DNA of 10,577 nucleotides from an uncultured Clostridia bacterium. GTDB taxonomy: Bacteria; Bacillota; Clostridia; Oscillospirales; Ruminococcaceae. The notes under the pieces were generated by a model. The model was not told the origin of the DNA. It was given only the letters and a program-made list of their open reading frames with translations, and searched no databases. The stretch is from the NCBI GenBank assembly GCA_946056455.1, contig CAMGJS010000019.1:1-10577 (forward strand), written 5' to 3'. Numbering within the stretch: position 1 is the first letter of the stretch; each line of letters begins with the position of its first letter. This document shows, piece after piece, positions 4,306 to 10,577 of the stretch. A program made the translations under genes and the position numbers.

Positions 4306-4308
4306 AAA

Positions 4309-4430
4309 ATATCCCGACTGTCAGGGTAATGCCGATAAAGAAATATTTATCAGCACCGAGCCGCAAACTTTGGCATTTCGTAAAGTAAATTACGAATTGC
4401 CAAAGGAGGCTCCACCATAGTCGGGATTTT
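4309..4430. terminator. Branched inverted repeat between convergent genes; bidirectional terminator, possible structured RNA
   Basis: The outer stem ATCCCGACT (4311-4319) pairs with AGTCGGGAT (4419-4427). It extends by a G-T pair, a T-A pair and, past a CAG bulge, GGT with ACC. Inside are two helices. P2 is 4330-4339 with 4346-4355, with one mismatch and a 6-base loop. P3 is GAGCC (4358-4362) with GGCTC (4408-4412), then 15 further positions with one mismatch (4368-4382 with 4391-4405) and a small A-rich internal loop. The plus strand continues with TTTTATTATTT and the minus strand with ATTTTTTATT, so either transcript could end here. The stop codons of both flanking genes lie in or beside the opposite strand's T-run. 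I recognise no riboswitch consensus on either strand. Confidence 0.65.
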
Positions 4431-4431
4431 A

Positions 4432-5856
4432 TTATTTAAGTATAGAAATAGCGTCCGCTATGCTCTTTTCAAAAGCCTCGTTGCCGTATTTGTCGACCTC
4501 GGCTTTGTTTTTTTCGCCGTGGGTAAGACAACCTGCTCCACCGATACAACCGCCCACGCAAGCCATACCCTCGATAAAGTTTGCGTCAAGCATATTCTTG
4601 CTCTTTTTGAGCAGTGCCACACGGCAAGCCTCGATACCGTCGCAGGTGCAGGCTTTGAGTTCAAAGTCCTCTATTCCCTGCTCTTTGAGCGCCTCGGCAA
4701 CAGCGTCGGTAAGTCCGCCCGAACGGGCAAAAATTCTTCCGAAGTATGAAGCGTTGTCAAGGACATCTTCTTCAAGATTTGTGATTTCAATATCACGGCT
4801 GTCAAAAAGCGCCTGCAACTCCTCAAAGGTCATAACAGCGTCAATGTATTTTTTCACCTCGGGCTTCTGAGCCTCGGCTTTCTTTGCGGTGCAAGGACCT
4901 ATGAACACGACCTTTGCAGCGTTGTCTGTTTCCTTGATATATTTTGCAATAGTCGCCATAGGCGAAAGGTTATGTGAGATATGCTCTTTGAGTGCAGGGA
5001 AGGATTTATTGATATAATCAACAAAAGCAGGACAGCACGAGCTTGTGAGAAAACCCTTTTCGGTGAGTTCTTTGGACTCTGCCATAGCTACCATATCCGC
5101 GCCGAGAGCCGCCTCAACAACGGTATGAAAACCTAAGGCTTTAAGTCCGCTTATTACCTGCCCGAGTTTTGCATAGGTGAACTGGCTTGATATTGACGGT
5201 GCAACTACCGCATAGACATTGTATTTTTCATCACGGTTGCGGTTTTTGAGCATATCCACAACATTGATGATATAGGATTTATCCATAATAGCGCCGAAAG
5301 GACACTGATAAACGCACGCTCCGCAGGAAATGCAGGTGTCGTTGTCGATAATGGCCTCTTTGCTTTCGTTCATAGAAATCGCCTTTATCTTGCAGGCGTT
5401 CTGGCACGGGCGCTTTCTGCTGACTATTGCGGTATAAGGACACACCTTTGCGCAGGCTCCGCATTCCTTGCACTTTGACTTGTCGATATGAGCGACATGG
5501 TTGTTATCAAAGGATATTGCTCCGAAACGGCATACATCTTCGCAACGGTGCGCAAGACAACCTCGGCAGGCGTTTGTGACTTCAAATCCGCCGACGGGAC
5601 ATTCATCGCAGGCTATCGGGATAACCTCAATGACATTGGGGTTTTCTTTATCTCCGCCCATTGCGATTTTGACGCGCTCGGAAAGAATAGCTCTTTCTTT
5701 ATAAACGCAACAGCGCATTGTCGGCGTTTTTCCCGGAACGAGGATTTTGGGGATATCCAAAAGATTATCGTAAAGAGTATCGTTCCAGGCTTGCCTTGCT
5801 ACTTCGCTTAAAACCTTATATTTCAGATGCTGGACCTTTGTATCAAACTTTCGCAT
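4432..5856 (-). CDS. hydA2: Group B [FeFe]-hydrogenase, probably ferredoxin-dependent (HydA2 type)
   Basis: This 474-residue cytoplasmic enzyme should reduce protons with reduced ferredoxin, disposing of fermentation electrons as H2. The N-terminal third is cysteine-rich: CDEC (83, 86), CRGC (97, 100), C105/C109, CKECGACAKVCP (C129, C132, C135, C139), C151/C155 and CISCGACVYQCP (C175, C178, C181, C185). This predicts several [4Fe-4S] clusters. H-cluster motifs follow: L1 TSSCCPAF (C274, C275), L2 GPCTAKKAE (C322), and L3 EGMACVGGCIGGAG (C433, C437). Gly before PC in L2, where group A enzymes have Met, and the GGAG ending of L3 point to group B. AAGGTG precedes the ATG; 12 bases separate it from the phosphatase gene. 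It is the last gene of the operon. The maturases HydE, HydF and HydG are not in the window. Confidence 0.9.
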   Translation of the reverse strand: MRKFDTKVQHLKYKVLSEVARQAWNDTLYDNLLDIPKILVPGKTPTMRCCVYKERAILSERVKIAMGGDKENPNVIEVIPIACDECPVGGFEVTNACRGCLAHRCEDVCRFGAISFDNNHVAHIDKSKCKECGACAKVCPYTAIVSRKRPCQNACKIKAISMNESKEAIIDNDTCISCGACVYQCPFGAIMDKSYIINVVDMLKNRNRDEKYNVYAVVAPSISSQFTYAKLGQVISGLKALGFHTVVEAALGADMVAMAESKELTEKGFLTSSCCPAFVDYINKSFPALKEHISHNLSPMATIAKYIKETDNAAKVVFIGPCTAKKAEAQKPEVKKYIDAVMTFEELQALFDSRDIEITNLEEDVLDNASYFGRIFARSGGLTDAVAEALKEQGIEDFELKACTCDGIEACRVALLKKSKNMLDANFIEGMACVGGCIGGAGCLTHGEKNKAEVDKYGNEAFEKSIADAISILK

Positions 5857-5868
5857 ATTACACCTTCT

Positions 5869-7041
5869 TTAAAAATAGCTTACCTTGATTTTTTTGCCCA
5901 TTTTTTTGAGACAAGACGAGAGCTCCTCGACAATGTTCATCTTTATGCTGAAATTTATGGGCAGGTCGGGGTTCTGGTGGGCAGGGTTCATCGCTCTGCC
6001 GACAAAGAAGTTTATGTCCGTCGCCTCTTCAAAAAGCAGACGGCATATAAGCGAAGCGCCGTCACGCTTGAAGTTCCATTGTTCGTAATTTTCATTTCCC
6101 GCAAGGTAATCTCTTGCGTATTCAAGCACCTTGCTCATTGTGATAACGCCCTCGGTGACAAGGTCAACGCCGTCTATCTCCGCAATAGGAGGAACATCGG
6201 ATTTTTCAAAATTAAGGCTCACCTTTATCTGCTTGCCGAGGTATTTTGCCGCTATTGACGAAGTCGTTCCTCCGCATATAATATGCTTGCCCTCTTTTGA
6301 GAAAAAGAGTGACATCATTCTGTCGCAGTCGTTGCGGTTCTGGGGAGGTCCGAAAAGAATATTCATCGGCTCTCTCTTTCTCACTCTCACAACGCAGGCG
6401 GTAGCATCGTCGCCCGGGCGGTTGCCGTAAAGCTTGTTGCACTCATCGACGAGAATTGTCGAGAGGGTTTTTGCGGTGTATCCCACATCGGAAATAGACT
6501 CCATAAAATCTCTTATATCTTCCGTCTTCCAGCCGAAGTTAAATGCTGTACCTATTCCGGCGTGTGGACAACCATCGCTCATTGCGACAAAAACATCGTT
6601 TTCTTTGAGCTTTATCGTTGAGCGGATAACCGTTTTTCCGTCTATGTTAAGCTCGGTTTTGGGGTAATCATAACTCTTGCCGTCACGGAAAAGCATAATG
6701 AGCGGATTGTCAAACTGCATAAGCTCGGCAGTTTCGTTATCTTTGATATGAATAATGGTGAAGGTCGAGTATGCAACTCCCCTTACAGAACATATCGGCA
6801 AGGTAGCCGCGATAGTCCTTACGCAGTCTTCAAGCTTTAAGCCTTCGGCAAGCATTGTTGATATTATCTTTGATGTAAGCGTTGAAAGAATACTCGCCTT
6901 GACGCCGCTGCCTAAACCGTCGGCAAGAACGATAACAGTCGAGTTTTCGTCCTGCTCAACAATGTCAACATGGTCGCCGCAAAGCTCTTCGCCGTAATGA
7001 TTGATGCTTTTATATCCTATGTCGGTACATAAATCATTCAT
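5869..7041 (-). CDS. SpoIIE/PP2C-family serine phosphatase with extra C-terminal domain
   Basis: Residues ~5-222 form a PP2C-like (SpoIIE/RsbU class) phosphatase. The metal-site acidic residues are in place: GD (D23), VLADGLGSG (D41), AMSDG (D156) and GDDATACVV (D211, D212). It should remove phosphate from Ser/Thr of a protein partner using Mn or Mg. Residues ~225-390 form a separate domain that I do not recognise, with NILFGPPQ and a glycine/serine-rich HIICGGTTSS. There is no membrane segment. I start at 7041, where AAGGAG (7057-7052) is well placed; an upstream in-frame ATG at 7074 would add 11 residues inside hydS. The start overlaps the end of hydS by 8 bases, implying translational coupling and joint action. 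Such phosphatases are known neighbours of group C hydrogenases, which supports a role in H2 or redox signalling. Confidence 0.9.
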   Translation of the reverse strand: MNDLCTDIGYKSINHYGEELCGDHVDIVEQDENSTVIVLADGLGSGVKASILSTLTSKIISTMLAEGLKLEDCVRTIAATLPICSVRGVAYSTFTIIHIKDNETAELMQFDNPLIMLFRDGKSYDYPKTELNIDGKTVIRSTIKLKENDVFVAMSDGCPHAGIGTAFNFGWKTEDIRDFMESISDVGYTAKTLSTILVDECNKLYGNRPGDDATACVVRVRKREPMNILFGPPQNRNDCDRMMSLFFSKEGKHIICGGTTSSIAAKYLGKQIKVSLNFEKSDVPPIAEIDGVDLVTEGVITMSKVLEYARDYLAGNENYEQWNFKRDGASLICRLLFEEATDINFFVGRAMNPAHQNPDLPINFSIKMNIVEELSSCLKKMGKKIKVSYF

Positions 7042-8707
7042 CAGATATACTCTCCTTAAGCTTTGTGAGGGCAATTTTCGTTTCCGCCGCAGTTTCGCCC
7101 AGAAGCGACGCTATCTCCTGAACGATACGCATCTGCTTGTCAACGACCTTGTCGGCGATTTCAACTGTCTGTCGGCTTATGCTTTCTTTCTTTTCCTTTT
7201 CACATTCTTCAGATGTGATATCGCGCATAATACATATGAGAAGTCGATAGTCCTTATCGTAAAGAACGGTCTGCTCGACATATTTTTTATATTCGGCAAG
7301 ATACATTCTCTGGTCCCTTACGCTTCTGCCCGTTTCAAGCACGGTGAGGAATATCTTGGGGTCGAGTATTCTTATTACCTGGTCGCCTAAAACATCGGAG
7401 GCGGAACGGATATTCATAATCTTTCTTGCCGCCGTGTTTATCTGCTGGACTTCGAGGCTTTCGTTAAGAACGATAATGCCGTTGGGGGTGTTATTGACAA
7501 TGTTATCCGAAAAGCTTTCTGCTTTGTCTTTAAGGAACGGCAGACACATTGAAACCTCCGCCTTGCCCTGATAAACGGCAACAGCTTTTTCACGGCAGGT
7601 ATTGTATCCGCAGGAACCGCAGTTGAGTTCGTCCGATGGCTTGAATTTGCCCATACGATGAAGAATTTCTTCAATCTCGGTTTCGCTCGGCATATTCACC
7701 TTGCGGTCAATCATTTCAAAATTCTTTTTAATCTCGTCGGGTTCAAACTCTGATATTTCAAAATCATTCTTACCCGCATAGTTTGCAATTTCCATATAGT
7801 CCTTAACGGGCGAATGATGATATTTTTCCATAACTGGACCGCCGATACAGCTTCCTGTGCAGGCGGACATTTCAATGAAGCATTTGTGAATTTTTCCGCT
7901 TTCGATATCTTTAAGTGCGGCAATGCAGTTTTCAACGCCGTCAACAACAAGATATGTATAACCCTTTTCTTCGCAGTCCATTGTTTTTAAAATACCGCCC
8001 GATGTGGGGAAAAATCTTGCACGGCTGTTTTCGTTTTCGTCCTTTTCGCCCGAAAGCGTAATGTTCTCGCTTTCAAGCCAGTTTGTAAGCTCCTCAAAGG
8101 TGAGAACCGCGTCCACAATTCCGCCGTAACGCTCAGCTTCGTCCTTTTTTGAAACGCAGGGACCTATGAAAACTGTCTTTGCGTTGGGGTTACGCTTTTT
8201 TATGTCCGAACAATGAGCCTGCATAGGCGACATAACATCCGCAAGAAAAGGAAGCTCCGCAGGAAAATATTTCTGTATAAGAAGATTTACAGAATGACAG
8301 CAGGAGGAAATCAAAATGTCACGCTGTTCTTCTCTTAAAATTCTTTCGTATTCGGTCTTTACCATTGTAGCGCCGTAAGCTGTTTCTTCAACCTCATAAA
8401 AGCCGAGCTTTCTGAGCGCTTCTCTCATCGAATTTATTCCGACGCCGTAATTTGCCACAAACGAAGGCGCCAGACTTGCAATGACCGGCGCTCCGCTTTG
8501 AAGATAAACTTTGATTTTTTCTGTTTCGTCGACTATTTCCTTTGCATTCTGAGGGCAGACAACAAAACATTGTCCGCAAAGAATACATTCATCGTCGATA
8601 ATATGAGCCTGATTTCCCGAAAATCTTATGGACTTTACGGGGCAGTTTCTGATACATTTATAGCAATTTTTACAGTTGGACTTTTTAAGCGTCATACAAC
8701 CGGGCAT
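7034..8707 (-). CDS. hydS: Group C sensory [FeFe]-hydrogenase with PAS domain (HydS)
   Basis: This 557-residue protein begins with a two-cluster ferredoxin domain (C12, C15, C18, C22; C41, C44, C47, C51). The H-cluster domain follows, with L1 ISSCCHS (C136, C137), L2 IGPCVSKKDEAE (C184) and L3 EMSACTGSCIGG (C283, C287), so all four expected ligand cysteines are kept. Next is a CxxCxxxxC...C cluster module (C363, C366, C371, C388) like the small Fe-S domain of RnfB-type proteins. Then come a PAS domain (~398-497) and a charged, probably coiled-coil tail (~500-555). There is no kinase, cyclase or DNA-binding output domain, so the signal must pass to a partner, most simply the overlapping phosphatase. 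Group C enzymes are thought to sense H2 rather than make it in bulk. GAGGG precedes the ATG, 3 bases after the ferredoxin stop. Confidence 0.92.
   Translation of the reverse strand: MPGCMTLKKSNCKNCYKCIRNCPVKSIRFSGNQAHIIDDECILCGQCFVVCPQNAKEIVDETEKIKVYLQSGAPVIASLAPSFVANYGVGINSMREALRKLGFYEVEETAYGATMVKTEYERILREEQRDILISSCCHSVNLLIQKYFPAELPFLADVMSPMQAHCSDIKKRNPNAKTVFIGPCVSKKDEAERYGGIVDAVLTFEELTNWLESENITLSGEKDENENSRARFFPTSGGILKTMDCEEKGYTYLVVDGVENCIAALKDIESGKIHKCFIEMSACTGSCIGGPVMEKYHHSPVKDYMEIANYAGKNDFEISEFEPDEIKKNFEMIDRKVNMPSETEIEEILHRMGKFKPSDELNCGSCGYNTCREKAVAVYQGKAEVSMCLPFLKDKAESFSDNIVNNTPNGIIVLNESLEVQQINTAARKIMNIRSASDVLGDQVIRILDPKIFLTVLETGRSVRDQRMYLAEYKKYVEQTVLYDKDYRLLICIMRDITSEECEKEKKESISRQTVEIADKVVDKQMRIVQEIASLLGETAAETKIALTKLKESISDE
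7052..7057 (-). promoter_or_regulatory. Ribosome binding site of the phosphatase, inside hydS
   Basis: AAGGAG on the minus strand lies 10 bases before the ATG at 7041 and within the last codons of hydS. It supports the 390-residue product and suggests coupled translation with hydS. Confidence 0.7.
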
Positions 8708-8710
8708 ATA

Positions 8711-8968
8711 CTATCCCTCTTCCTTTAATGCCTTTAAAATCTTATCTTCAAAAAATTCCTTGAAATTGTCTTTTGTTACTCCTGTGTAGATATTGTCGTC
8801 AACTGTGATTGTAACGCCCTCACGATTGCACTTGCCGGTACAGAAATTACCGGCAAGCGTAATATCGTTTGAAAGGTTGCGCTCTTCAATGGCGCTCTGC
8901 AAAAGCGATACAATATCCTCAGACCCTTTTAAGTGGCAGGAACTTCCCACACAAATCTGAACTATCAC
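8711..8968 (-). CDS. Thioredoxin-like [2Fe-2S] ferredoxin (second of a tandem pair)
   Basis: This small soluble electron carrier of the NuoE/thioredoxin-like ferredoxin fold has the cluster pattern CVGSSC (four residues between cysteines) and, ~35 residues on, FCTGKC (three between). I prefer the GTG at 8968 (85 residues, MIVQICVGSSCHLKGS). AAAGG at 8983-8979 is 10 bases away, whereas the GTG at 8977 is almost on top of that site and would overlap the previous stop by 4 bases. The preceding ferredoxin ends at 8974, and hydS starts 3 bases after this gene. The position suggests electron exchange with HydS, which is inference. Confidence 0.88.
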   Translation of the reverse strand: MIVQICVGSSCHLKGSEDIVSLLQSAIEERNLSNDITLAGNFCTGKCNREGVTITVDDNIYTGVTKDNFKEFFEDKILKALKEEG

Positions 8969-8973
8969 CCGTA

Positions 8974-9213
8974 TCACACCTTTGCAAGAATTTCTTTATT
9001 GAAAAATTCGTCAACAGTATCGGGGGTAAGCGAAAAGAAGTTGTCGTCAACGGTTACGCATACGCCCTGCTGACATTTGCCCATACAGAATGTTCCGCCG
9101 AGCTGAACCTTTTCTTTAAGGTCGTTTTCTGCAATAAGATACTGCAACTGCTCTACTACTCTGCGCGAGCCTTTAAGGTGACAGGAGCTTCCTATACATA
9201 CTGTTACTTTCAT
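8974..9213 (-). CDS. Thioredoxin-like [2Fe-2S] ferredoxin (first of a tandem pair)
   Basis: This is a paralogue of the next gene, sharing GSSCHLKGS, the FCxGKC motif and the VTVDDN stretch near the end. Cluster ligands are the cysteines of CIGSSC and FCMGKC, as in NuoE-like [2Fe-2S] proteins. The ATG at 9213 (79 residues) is preferred over the in-frame ATG at 9228, because GAGGAG at 9226-9221 sits 7 bases before 9213 and would lie inside the coding region of the longer version. It follows the kinase gene by 21 bases with no terminator or clear promoter between them. Compared with its neighbour it has QQGVC in place of NREGV after FCxGKC, so it carries one extra cysteine. Confidence 0.88.
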   Translation of the reverse strand: MKVTVCIGSSCHLKGSRRVVEQLQYLIAENDLKEKVQLGGTFCMGKCQQGVCVTVDDNFFSLTPDTVDEFFNKEILAKV

Positions 9214-9220
9214 TCCGTCA

Positions 9221-9226
9221 CTCCTC
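9221..9226 (-). promoter_or_regulatory. Ribosome binding site that fixes the start of the first ferredoxin
   Basis: GAGGAG on the minus strand lies 7 bases before the ATG at 9213. It falls inside the coding sequence if the upstream ATG at 9228 is used. This is the reason for the shorter start. Confidence 0.75.
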
Positions 9227-9234
9227 ATTTTCTG

Positions 9235-9984
9235 TTACTGATAGTCAACAACATTTACCCACGAGAGAAGGAATTCTCTTTCGTTTTCGTTTGCCTTTAC
9301 AGACTGTGAAGCGGCAACGATGGGCATCCACTTCTGAACATACTGCTTTGCTGTGTCGCTCTTCTTGCAGAAAAGCTCAAGATATTTCTTTGCTCCGTCA
9401 ATATCTCCGTTGAGCCAGAAAAGAAGATATGTTCTTGCGGCGTCAGCCGAAGCGTTACCCTGTGTAGCATGCGCCCAGTCGATGATATAGGGCGTGCCGT
9501 CATCGGTGATTATAACATTGGAGGGGTTGAAGTCGCCGTGGCAGAGCTTGTTATGCTTGGGCATAGATTCAAGACGGGTAAAGAGGTCGTATCTTGTTGT
9601 AGCGTCAAGCTGAGTAAGACCTATCTTGCGGTTCATCTTGTCCTTGAGCTTTGAAAGCATCGGGTTTGTCTTTGACTGAACTTCAAGCTGAAGGTCAACG
9701 AGAAGTTCGAGGTATTCGTCCTTCTTATCGGGGTTTTCTTCCATACGCTGAGTAAGAGTCTTACCCTTGATGAATTCGGAAACGATAGCCCACTTTCCGT
9801 CTATTGTGGTAACTTCGATAATCTTGTTGATGTTAAGTCCTGTTTCTTCAACTCTTGCCTGATTTAATGCCTCGTTGAGAACATCAGCCTTTGAATAATC
9901 GGTATCGAATACCTTTATACATTTGTCACCGTCACGGTAAATGGTCTTTGAATTTCTAACAGCAATCACTCTATCGAGTTTCAT
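9235..9984 (-). CDS. Small APH/choline-kinase-fold kinase (TIGR02172-like), substrate unknown
   Basis: This 249-residue soluble protein has the marks of an aminoglycoside-phosphotransferase/choline-kinase fold. An N-lobe with CIKVF carries the likely ATP-binding Lys. The catalytic loop is CHGDFNPSNVII (~148-159), with the catalytic Asp in HGD and the metal-binding Asn. The second metal site is the Asp of YIIDWAHA. The family includes small-molecule kinases and some protein-directed kinases. Nothing here indicates antibiotic resistance. It resembles, from pattern memory, the paralogous family TIGR02172 of anaerobes such as Fibrobacter. AGGAGG abuts the adhE stop, 12 bases upstream, so its translation is probably coupled to adhE. 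The context suggests regulation of fermentation, possibly opposing the PP2C phosphatase; that is inference. Confidence 0.82.
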   Translation of the reverse strand: MKLDRVIAVRNSKTIYRDGDKCIKVFDTDYSKADVLNEALNQARVEETGLNINKIIEVTTIDGKWAIVSEFIKGKTLTQRMEENPDKKDEYLELLVDLQLEVQSKTNPMLSKLKDKMNRKIGLTQLDATTRYDLFTRLESMPKHNKLCHGDFNPSNVIITDDGTPYIIDWAHATQGNASADAARTYLLFWLNGDIDGAKKYLELFCKKSDTAKQYVQKWMPIVAASQSVKANENEREFLLSWVNVVDYQ

Positions 9985-9996
9985 AGTTATTCCTCC

Positions 9997-10577
9997 TTAT
10001 ATTTTCTTCTTTCTGCCCTTGCTTGCTTTAACATAAGCCTGCTTTGCCTTGTCGTTGTCTGAGCTCTTGATTACAGATAAGCCGTCAGGAGTTGCAACTT
10101 CTTCAAAATGCTTGCCGTAGTAAGCGTTGAGGTACATCTGCTTGATTTCGCTCATAAGAGGATAACGGGGGTTAGCGCCTGTGCACTGGTCGTCAAATGC
10201 CTGCTCAACCATATCGTCGAGTCTGTCAAGGAAGTCCTTTTCGTCAATGCCGTAGTCCTTGATTGTAGCCTTTATGCCGACCTTTTCTTTAAGCTCGTTG
10301 ATAGCCTTGATAAGACCTTCAAGCTTTTCTTCGTCTGTGTTGCCCTTGATTCCAAGATAATCGGCAACCTCTGCGTATCTTGCAAGAGTGTGGGGGTGGT
10401 CATACTGTGAGAAGGTACCCATCTTTGCGGGAACTTCGCTTGCGTTGAAGCGGAGAACTTCTTCAATCATAAGTGCGTTGGCAACGCCGTGAGGAAGGTG
10501 ATGGAATGCACCGAGCTTGTGCGCCATTGAGTGACATACGCCGAGGAATGCGTTTGCGAATGCCATACCTGCCATTG
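9997..10577 (-). CDS. adhE: Bifunctional acetaldehyde-CoA/alcohol dehydrogenase, C-terminal part only
   Basis: The last ~193 codons of an iron-dependent alcohol dehydrogenase domain run in from the right edge. There is no start codon in the window; methionines near the edge are internal. GVCHSMAHKLGAFHHLPHG near the edge holds two Fe-ligand histidines 14 residues apart, as in E. coli AdhE. The stretch ending CTGANPRYPLMSEIKQMYLNAYYG is characteristic of AdhE rather than of short single-domain alcohol dehydrogenases. The full protein would convert acetyl-CoA to acetaldehyde and then ethanol, using two NADH. The end is lysine-rich (KASKGRKKKI). It is the most upstream gene seen in the operon; its promoter is outside the window. 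Confidence 0.92.
   Translation of the reverse strand, partial: MAGMAFANAFLGVCHSMAHKLGAFHHLPHGVANALMIEEVLRFNASEVPAKMGTFSQYDHPHTLARYAEVADYLGIKGNTDEEKLEGLIKAINELKEKVGIKATIKDYGIDEKDFLDRLDDMVEQAFDDQCTGANPRYPLMSEIKQMYLNAYYGKHFEEVATPDGLSVIKSSDNDKAKQAYVKASKGRKKKI

Follow-up and report, generated by a model that had tools for sequence, protein, structure and literature searches.

The seven-gene operon and its precedent

The window, by which we mean the whole stretch of DNA that was analysed (10,577 nucleotides (nt) from an uncultured Clostridia bacterium, GenBank assembly GCA_946056455.1, contig CAMGJS010000019.1), is the entire contig C19 of a genome bin (G000) that measures 1.33 Mb and is rated 74% complete. 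On its minus strand lie seven genes, namely the 3' part of adhE, a kinase of the APH fold, two ferredoxins, the putative hydrogen sensor HydS, a SpoIIE/PP2C serine phosphatase and the hydrogenase HydA2 (Table 1). On balance, we lean slightly towards reading this locus as an H2-responsive fermentation operon of the Ruminococcus albus 7 type, built of two modules, in which a LysR-type protein would activate transcription through an upstream dyad and HydS would signal to the phosphatase. The division into two modules follows from the observation that the phosphatase tracks HydS and the kinase tracks adhE.

The gene calls of a preliminary description of this DNA stand, since all seven proteins have profile matches, each above a curated Pfam cut-off. 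The adhE part matches PF25137 (117.9 bits) and reaches 226 bits with the AdhE model NF010378 (positions 714-870 of 872), which is under the whole-protein cut-off because the gene is truncated. HydA2 matches the monomeric [FeFe] hydrogenase B1 model of NCBIfam (TIGR04105, 569.9 against a cut-off of 450 bits), and the R. albus protein is called group A1 in excerpts of PMC6776011. The layout described earlier, seven co-directional genes with gaps of 3-21 nt and one 8-nt overlap, was also found: from adhE to HydA2 the gaps are 12, 21, 5, 3, -8 and 12 nt with starts as in R. albus 7, the ferredoxin starts 9213 and 8968 having been chosen as those that match it. Promoter-like sites inside the window are not in excess (14, against 15.9 +/- 3.8 in shuffles), and an Rfam search returned no match.

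The arrangement is found again in relatives, of which the best 80 of at least 565 were kept, and in R. albus 7; judging by these sequences, the module is common in gut Clostridia. On the R. albus 7 plasmid pRumal01 the order is LysR (RUMAL_RS17345), Rex, adhE, phosphotransferase, ferredoxin, ferredoxin, HydS, SpoIIE phosphatase, HydA2, so that from adhE to HydA2 it is identical to that of the window, where adhE is covered only in part. Identities range from 60 to 81% (adhE part 60%, kinase 77%, ferredoxins 81% and 63%, HydS 70%, phosphatase 76%, HydA2 77%). According to excerpts of PMC10838669, HydA2 and HydS form one transcriptional unit on pRumal01, and excerpts of PMC6776011 report 111-fold lower expression of the unit in low-H2 co-culture. 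Both the precedent and the low-H2 downregulation, which the preliminary description had mentioned, are thus borne out. The operon itself is already known; it is ordinary as an operon and informative as a comparison. The R. albus copy differs from the window in being on a plasmid, and it carries rex between LysR and adhE, whereas G004, a sibling of the window's genome, has the upstream LysR gene without rex there. The window contig stops inside adhE and its upstream part lies beyond the contig; for this reason the LysR gene and the dyad were out of reach of the preliminary description.

A recent transfer of the operon between the window genome and G004 is not indicated (nucleotide identity 95.0% in the operon, 91.1% in the flank and 93.1% at another locus). 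A record titled as the archaeon Methanocorpusculum (L140) carries a full bacterial set of LysR, rex, kinase, HydS, phosphatase and HydA2; it is probably a wrongly binned contig.

Table 1. Position and character of the features in the window (aa, amino acids; pLDDT, predicted local distance difference test)
Feature	Positions	Strand	Remarks
adhE 3' part (Fe-ADH C-terminal domain)	9997..10577	-	C-terminal 192 aa, coding from 10575; gene runs off contig end
APH-fold kinase, adhE-linked	9235..9984	-	PF01636 46.5 bits
Thioredoxin-like [2Fe-2S] ferredoxin A	8974..9213	-	PF01257 35.7 bits; alternative start 9228
Thioredoxin-like [2Fe-2S] ferredoxin B	8711..8968	-	PF01257 36.1 bits; alternative start 8977
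HydS: 2x[4Fe-4S], H-cluster domain, FeS domain, PAS, C-terminal tail	7034..8707	-	PF02906, PF04060, PF00989
HydS tail, residues 521-551, behind PAS domain, proposed phosphatase contact	7055..7147	-	Low entropy
SpoIIE/PP2C serine phosphatase	5869..7041	-	8-nt overlap with hydS stop
Phosphatase C-terminal a/b domain (residues 226-390)	5869..6366	-	Model pLDDT 89.6
HydA2, monomeric [FeFe] hydrogenase B1	4432..5856	-	TIGR04105 569.9 bits
Structured 3' element and terminator-like hairpin with T-run	4306..4432	-	136-nt fold z -8.1

Companions of HydS and of the kinase

Gene partners were counted in 120 related genomes including the window's own. HydS-positive genomes, 43 in number, were listed by hand and include some with partial genes (the weakest, G009, at 110 bits); presence was called at 200 bits or more for the kinase and 90 bits or more for the phosphatase. 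The genomes are related to each other and are not independent draws. The phosphatase is present in 42 of the 43 HydS-positive genomes and in none of the 77 others, and the exception, G080, has a phosphatase match of 46 bits beside its HydS. Among HydS loci with enough flank, HydS is followed by the phosphatase in all 77 of the named and in 38/39 unnamed ones, the last one (L039) having a phosphatase piece on a different contig; a small ferredoxin precedes HydS in 76/77 and 35/39. This is the neighbourhood survey that the preliminary description had proposed as a check, and its outcome, together with the gene overlap and the conserved tail of HydS, supports the coupling of HydS to the phosphatase claimed there. 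As far as sequence comparison goes, the phosphatase is a strict companion of HydS.

Conservation within HydS was measured on 100 sequences, the window's own and 99 non-redundant ones of 116. The block of residues 521-540, behind the PAS domain, has the lowest mean entropy of all blocks (0.26 bits; the second lowest, an iron-sulphur block, has 0.50 bits). We take this tail to be a putative contact with the phosphatase, a dimerisation helix being the alternative. The H-cluster cysteines C137, C184, C283 and C287 are kept at 97% or more. In addition, position 136 is cysteine in 93/100, position 182 glycine in 100/100 and position 281 serine in 85/100. C136 stands at the proton-transfer position, where excerpts of PMC10055695 give cysteine for about 17% of HydDB sensory sequences, and in this HydS differs from them. 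By its features rather than by the HydDB classifier, HydS has what characterises [FeFe] group C3: an H-cluster with its ligands, a PAS domain and a neighbouring SpoIIE serine phosphatase. Excerpts of PMC5037454 list this group as phosphatase-linked (putative) with no assigned role, and our literature search returned no publication joining HydS, hydrogen sensing and a phosphatase.

The phosphatase has the SpoIIE/PP2C fold and the invariant metal-binding aspartates of the SpoIIE/RsbU type. It differs from that type in that its sensor is a separate protein and in an extra C-terminal domain, which in the window's copy has no Pfam match and among PDB sequences matches weakly to phosphoheptose isomerase (E 0.01); a Rossmann domain of the molybdopterin-oxidoreductase type was considered for its fold. 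Standalone copies of this domain were sought in the best 120 of 1761 matches; many come from short contigs and some are named as partial phosphatases, which makes these matches uninformative. No HydS-PP2C fusion of the length expected was seen among the best 120 of 8000 candidates. Separately, four HydS-like frames of 443-458 aa (G037:C90, G064:C139, G020:C157 and G034:C12), matching HydS only to about residue 400-433, lie beside an RsbW-like HATPase_c_2 match; such pairs may represent a sensor coupled to a kinase, in parallel to the one linked to the phosphatase. Elsewhere in the window's bin (L154, G000:C63, 1008-2911) an [FeFe]-hydrogenase-like domain is followed by an apparent methyl-accepting chemotaxis domain across two overlapping frames; with domains called by eye, this is perhaps a chemotactic H2 sensor (HydDB C2).

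The kinase belongs to the APH phosphotransferase family (PF01636, cut-off 23.2 bits) and has its catalytic motif: among 53 sequences K24, D151 and N156 are invariant, H149 and D169 nearly so. It stays below the cut-offs of TIGR02172 (54.5 against 228.2 bits) and of Pfam Pkinase (20 against 31.7 bits). Thiamine kinase (33.9 bits, cut-off 299) and choline kinase (E 1e-6 across 88 positions) were considered as identities and set aside as weak matches.

Its distribution is not that of HydS. The kinase occurs in 16 of the 43 HydS-positive and 19 of the 77 HydS-negative genomes (p = 0.21). When one locus per genome was examined (30 loci, from 35 kinase-bearing genomes), adhE lies directly upstream of it in 23, among them every one of the 15 that come from HydS-negative genomes, and the remaining seven belong to HydS or ferredoxin operons. 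A second set, 27 loci of best matches from other orders of the same class, has adhE upstream in 26 cases and HydS downstream in 14, so that overall 49 of 57 kinase loci have adhE directly upstream. Within the window's genus, all six genomes have the kinase and two have HydS; G002, of this genus, and G094 show LysR-adhE-kinase without HydS. On the HydS side, the kinase is inside 58/67 named and 10/38 unnamed loci with enough flank. Given the adhE neighbours and the lack of a genome-level tie to HydS, the comparison suggests that the kinase belongs primarily with adhE, though it also joins HydS operons. In one locus (L273) HydA2 comes after adhE and the kinase, and the stretch covered has no match to ferredoxin or HydS.

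Regions upstream and downstream of the operon

Where the locus offers 6.1 kb or more, 26/40 named and 8/32 unnamed ones have a LysR-type gene upstream, and so do R. albus 7 and G004; L097 and L099 have 3 kb between this gene and rex. A dyad model was built from four loci, and each region was scored against 100 shuffles of itself. The dyad beats all 100 in 20 of 31 held-out LysR-adjacent regions, of which L036 and L096 are one locus and others are close kin. R. albus, outside the training set, scores 33.4 and G002 scores 20.1, both over all shuffles. Scores fall within the shuffles in all 11 adhE-kinase promoters that have no LysR match in the stretch covered (195 nt only for L226). In L228 (G055) a divergent LysR gene adjoins adhE, and this promoter is not among the 11.

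The distance from dyad to -10 box is 36 nt in 18 of 25 regions, 35 nt in three and other in four; the rest of the 36 regions comprise ten without a right half at three or fewer mismatches and one without a good -10. As the -10 was taken as the best TATAAT-like hexamer 18-60 nt from the dyad, its likeness to a sigma-A box is partly built in. G004 has one dyad site 35 nt from the -10 and a second, read by eye, 36 nt from a -10 that lies in a Rex-like box. When a fixed dyad pattern (up to three mismatches) was run against ten genomes or records, each had between 0 and 3 sites, and the reversed control had none. Sites away from the promoter, such as G090:C12 5108-5131, G000:C116 2426-2449 and G004:C144 1895-1918 (2 and 3 mismatches), are possible further LysR targets, or chance.

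Rex-like boxes with two or fewer mismatches to the consensus occur in 11/13 adhE-first, 3/17 rex-first and 1/6 other promoters (about 1 per 100 in shuffles), and the best in the rex-first promoter of R. albus 7 has five mismatches. We infer that the dyad may be the activator site and that Rex may add a second input in certain lineages. A search of the open-licence literature returned no publication on a LysR regulator of this operon, although Zheng et al. 2014 may mention it. The LysR gene with its dyad is a candidate for the transcriptional output of the H2 response, and a testable lead.

Downstream, HydA2 lies behind the phosphatase in 57/63 named loci with at least 2.7 kb, and a number of unnamed HydS-phosphatase loci are without HydA2 in the vicinity. 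The core of the palindromic repeat 3' of HydA2 has copies of 83-89% identity at three further sites in the bin (contigs C113, C125 and C20), the one on C125 directly behind a HydABC operon. Its outer stems vary among copies, yet are complementary by eye; the version in G004 is shorter and lacks one hairpin.

A proposed mechanism and its rivals

Gene content and order, co-occurrence and promoter conservation come straight from the comparison. We would describe the working of the system as follows. The first module, adhE and the APH kinase, often behind LysR and rex, would make ethanol; the second, ferredoxin, HydS and PP2C, many loci having HydA2 or HydABC close by, would sense and make H2. The LysR protein would bind the dyad and activate the operon, with Rex acting as a second input where its box overlaps the -10. 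H2 would alter the redox state of HydS, and the PAS domain and tail would relay the change to PP2C, which may then dephosphorylate a partner, the first candidates being the LysR regulator, AdhE and HydA2. The kinase most likely acts in the context of AdhE. A more specific version concerns R. albus-type bacteria of the rumen and gut. There a dedicated LysR-type activator at a fixed dyad would run the H2 switch between ethanol and H2 formation, and the phosphatase, gated by HydS, would control the phosphorylation state of LysR or of AdhE, itself phosphorylated by the adhE-linked kinase, so that the target is encoded in or beside the operon; this version is in our opinion rather unlikely.

The hfsABCD operon of Thermoanaerobacterium offers a comparison. 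As in the window it has a PAS hydrogenase (hfsB, the HydS homologue), a serine phosphatase (hfsC) and a HydA2-like gene (hfsD; excerpts of PMC11837493); it differs in that adhE is elsewhere (Tsac_0416) and no kinase gene is described in the four-gene operon. When hfsA or hfsB is deleted, adhE transcripts rise two- to threefold, which counts in favour of our reading, and ethanol rises too, with higher NADH-ADH (alcohol dehydrogenase) and the same NADH-ALDH (aldehyde dehydrogenase) activity, and deletion of hfsC or hfsD leaves adhE transcripts unchanged (PMC5707799). The sensor is therefore a brake in Thermoanaerobacterium.

Several observations weigh against our interpretation. With hfsD expressed in the hfsABCD deletion, ethanol is high again although the phosphatase is absent (excerpts of PMC11837493); the phosphatase can thus be bypassed, which argues against its always being needed for ethanol control. 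No LysR match or promoter was found in the window's own genome, G000, which is incomplete and whose contig ends in adhE. Of the held-out LysR-adjacent regions 11/31 fail to beat all shuffles, the dyad is missing from three adhE-kinase loci whose LysR genes are divergent (46, 36 and 34% identical), and the fixed pattern falls at the operon promoter in only 3/10 genomes or records (G086, G105 and R. albus), its other matches being elsewhere. The HydS operons of more distant relatives mostly have no LysR gene (8/32 do), so LysR is not a general target of the phosphatase.

Among the alternatives, the preliminary description had HydS activate the phosphatase and the kinase antagonise it, both on one target. 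The retained active site of the kinase, its place in most named HydS loci and the seven loci that lie in HydS or ferredoxin operons without adhE directly upstream agree with this; the missing genome-level association with HydS, and the kinase standing behind adhE without HydS or phosphatase in every locus from a HydS-negative genome, speak against it. The antagonist role is accordingly not supported, even though the kinase is also present in some HydS operons, and we judge it unlikely. Zheng et al. 2014, as told in excerpts of PMC5707799, proposed instead that the PAS domain of HydS passes the signal on to the neighbouring kinase. The two genes do lie close together in R. albus 7, but the kinase follows adhE in its distribution and the overlapping, strictly co-occurring partner of HydS is the phosphatase, and we regard this proposal as very improbable. 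As in SpoIIE and RsbU systems, the phosphatase might dephosphorylate a STAS protein and so free an alternative sigma factor for the operon. Its family and fold fit, and STAS is found in 113 and HATPase_c_2 in all 120 genomes, which makes their co-occurrence uninformative by being near-universal. Two HydS-positive genomes, G028 (78% complete) and G098 (97%), have no STAS match, and the -10 boxes at fixed distance are sigma-A-like in a search that sought such hexamers; partner switching is in our view quite unlikely.

Rex alone could also account for the response, if more H2 means more NADH and Rex then leaves the promoter, HydS being dispensable for transcription. The boxes in most adhE-first promoters and the rex gene in the R. 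albus operon favour it. Against it stand the scarcity of boxes in rex-first promoters, that of R. albus 7 included, and the higher ethanol of T. saccharolyticum together with higher rex expression (PMC5707799), and we consider it doubtful. Finally, the HydS-phosphatase pair may regulate HydA2 post-translationally, with ethanol shifts following electron flow. Deletion of hfsB raised hydrogenase activity, hfsD alone gave high ethanol, and HydA2 usually follows the phosphatase; on the other hand, the R. albus transcripts do change 111-fold and some unnamed HydS-phosphatase loci have no HydA2 nearby, which makes this explanation rather unlikely in our opinion.

R. albus is a classic case of interspecies hydrogen transfer (PMC5707799). 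For how the H2 level leads to the choice of acetate or ethanol, PMC6776011 and PMC11837493 offer no more than a proposal, as far as excerpts of these go. On the comparison presented here the phosphatase would go with the sensor and the kinase with the ethanol enzyme; the comparison also names one DNA-binding protein and one short candidate site, both present in R. albus 7. Many of the relatives kept in the comparison come from ruminants, where H2 feeds methane formation.

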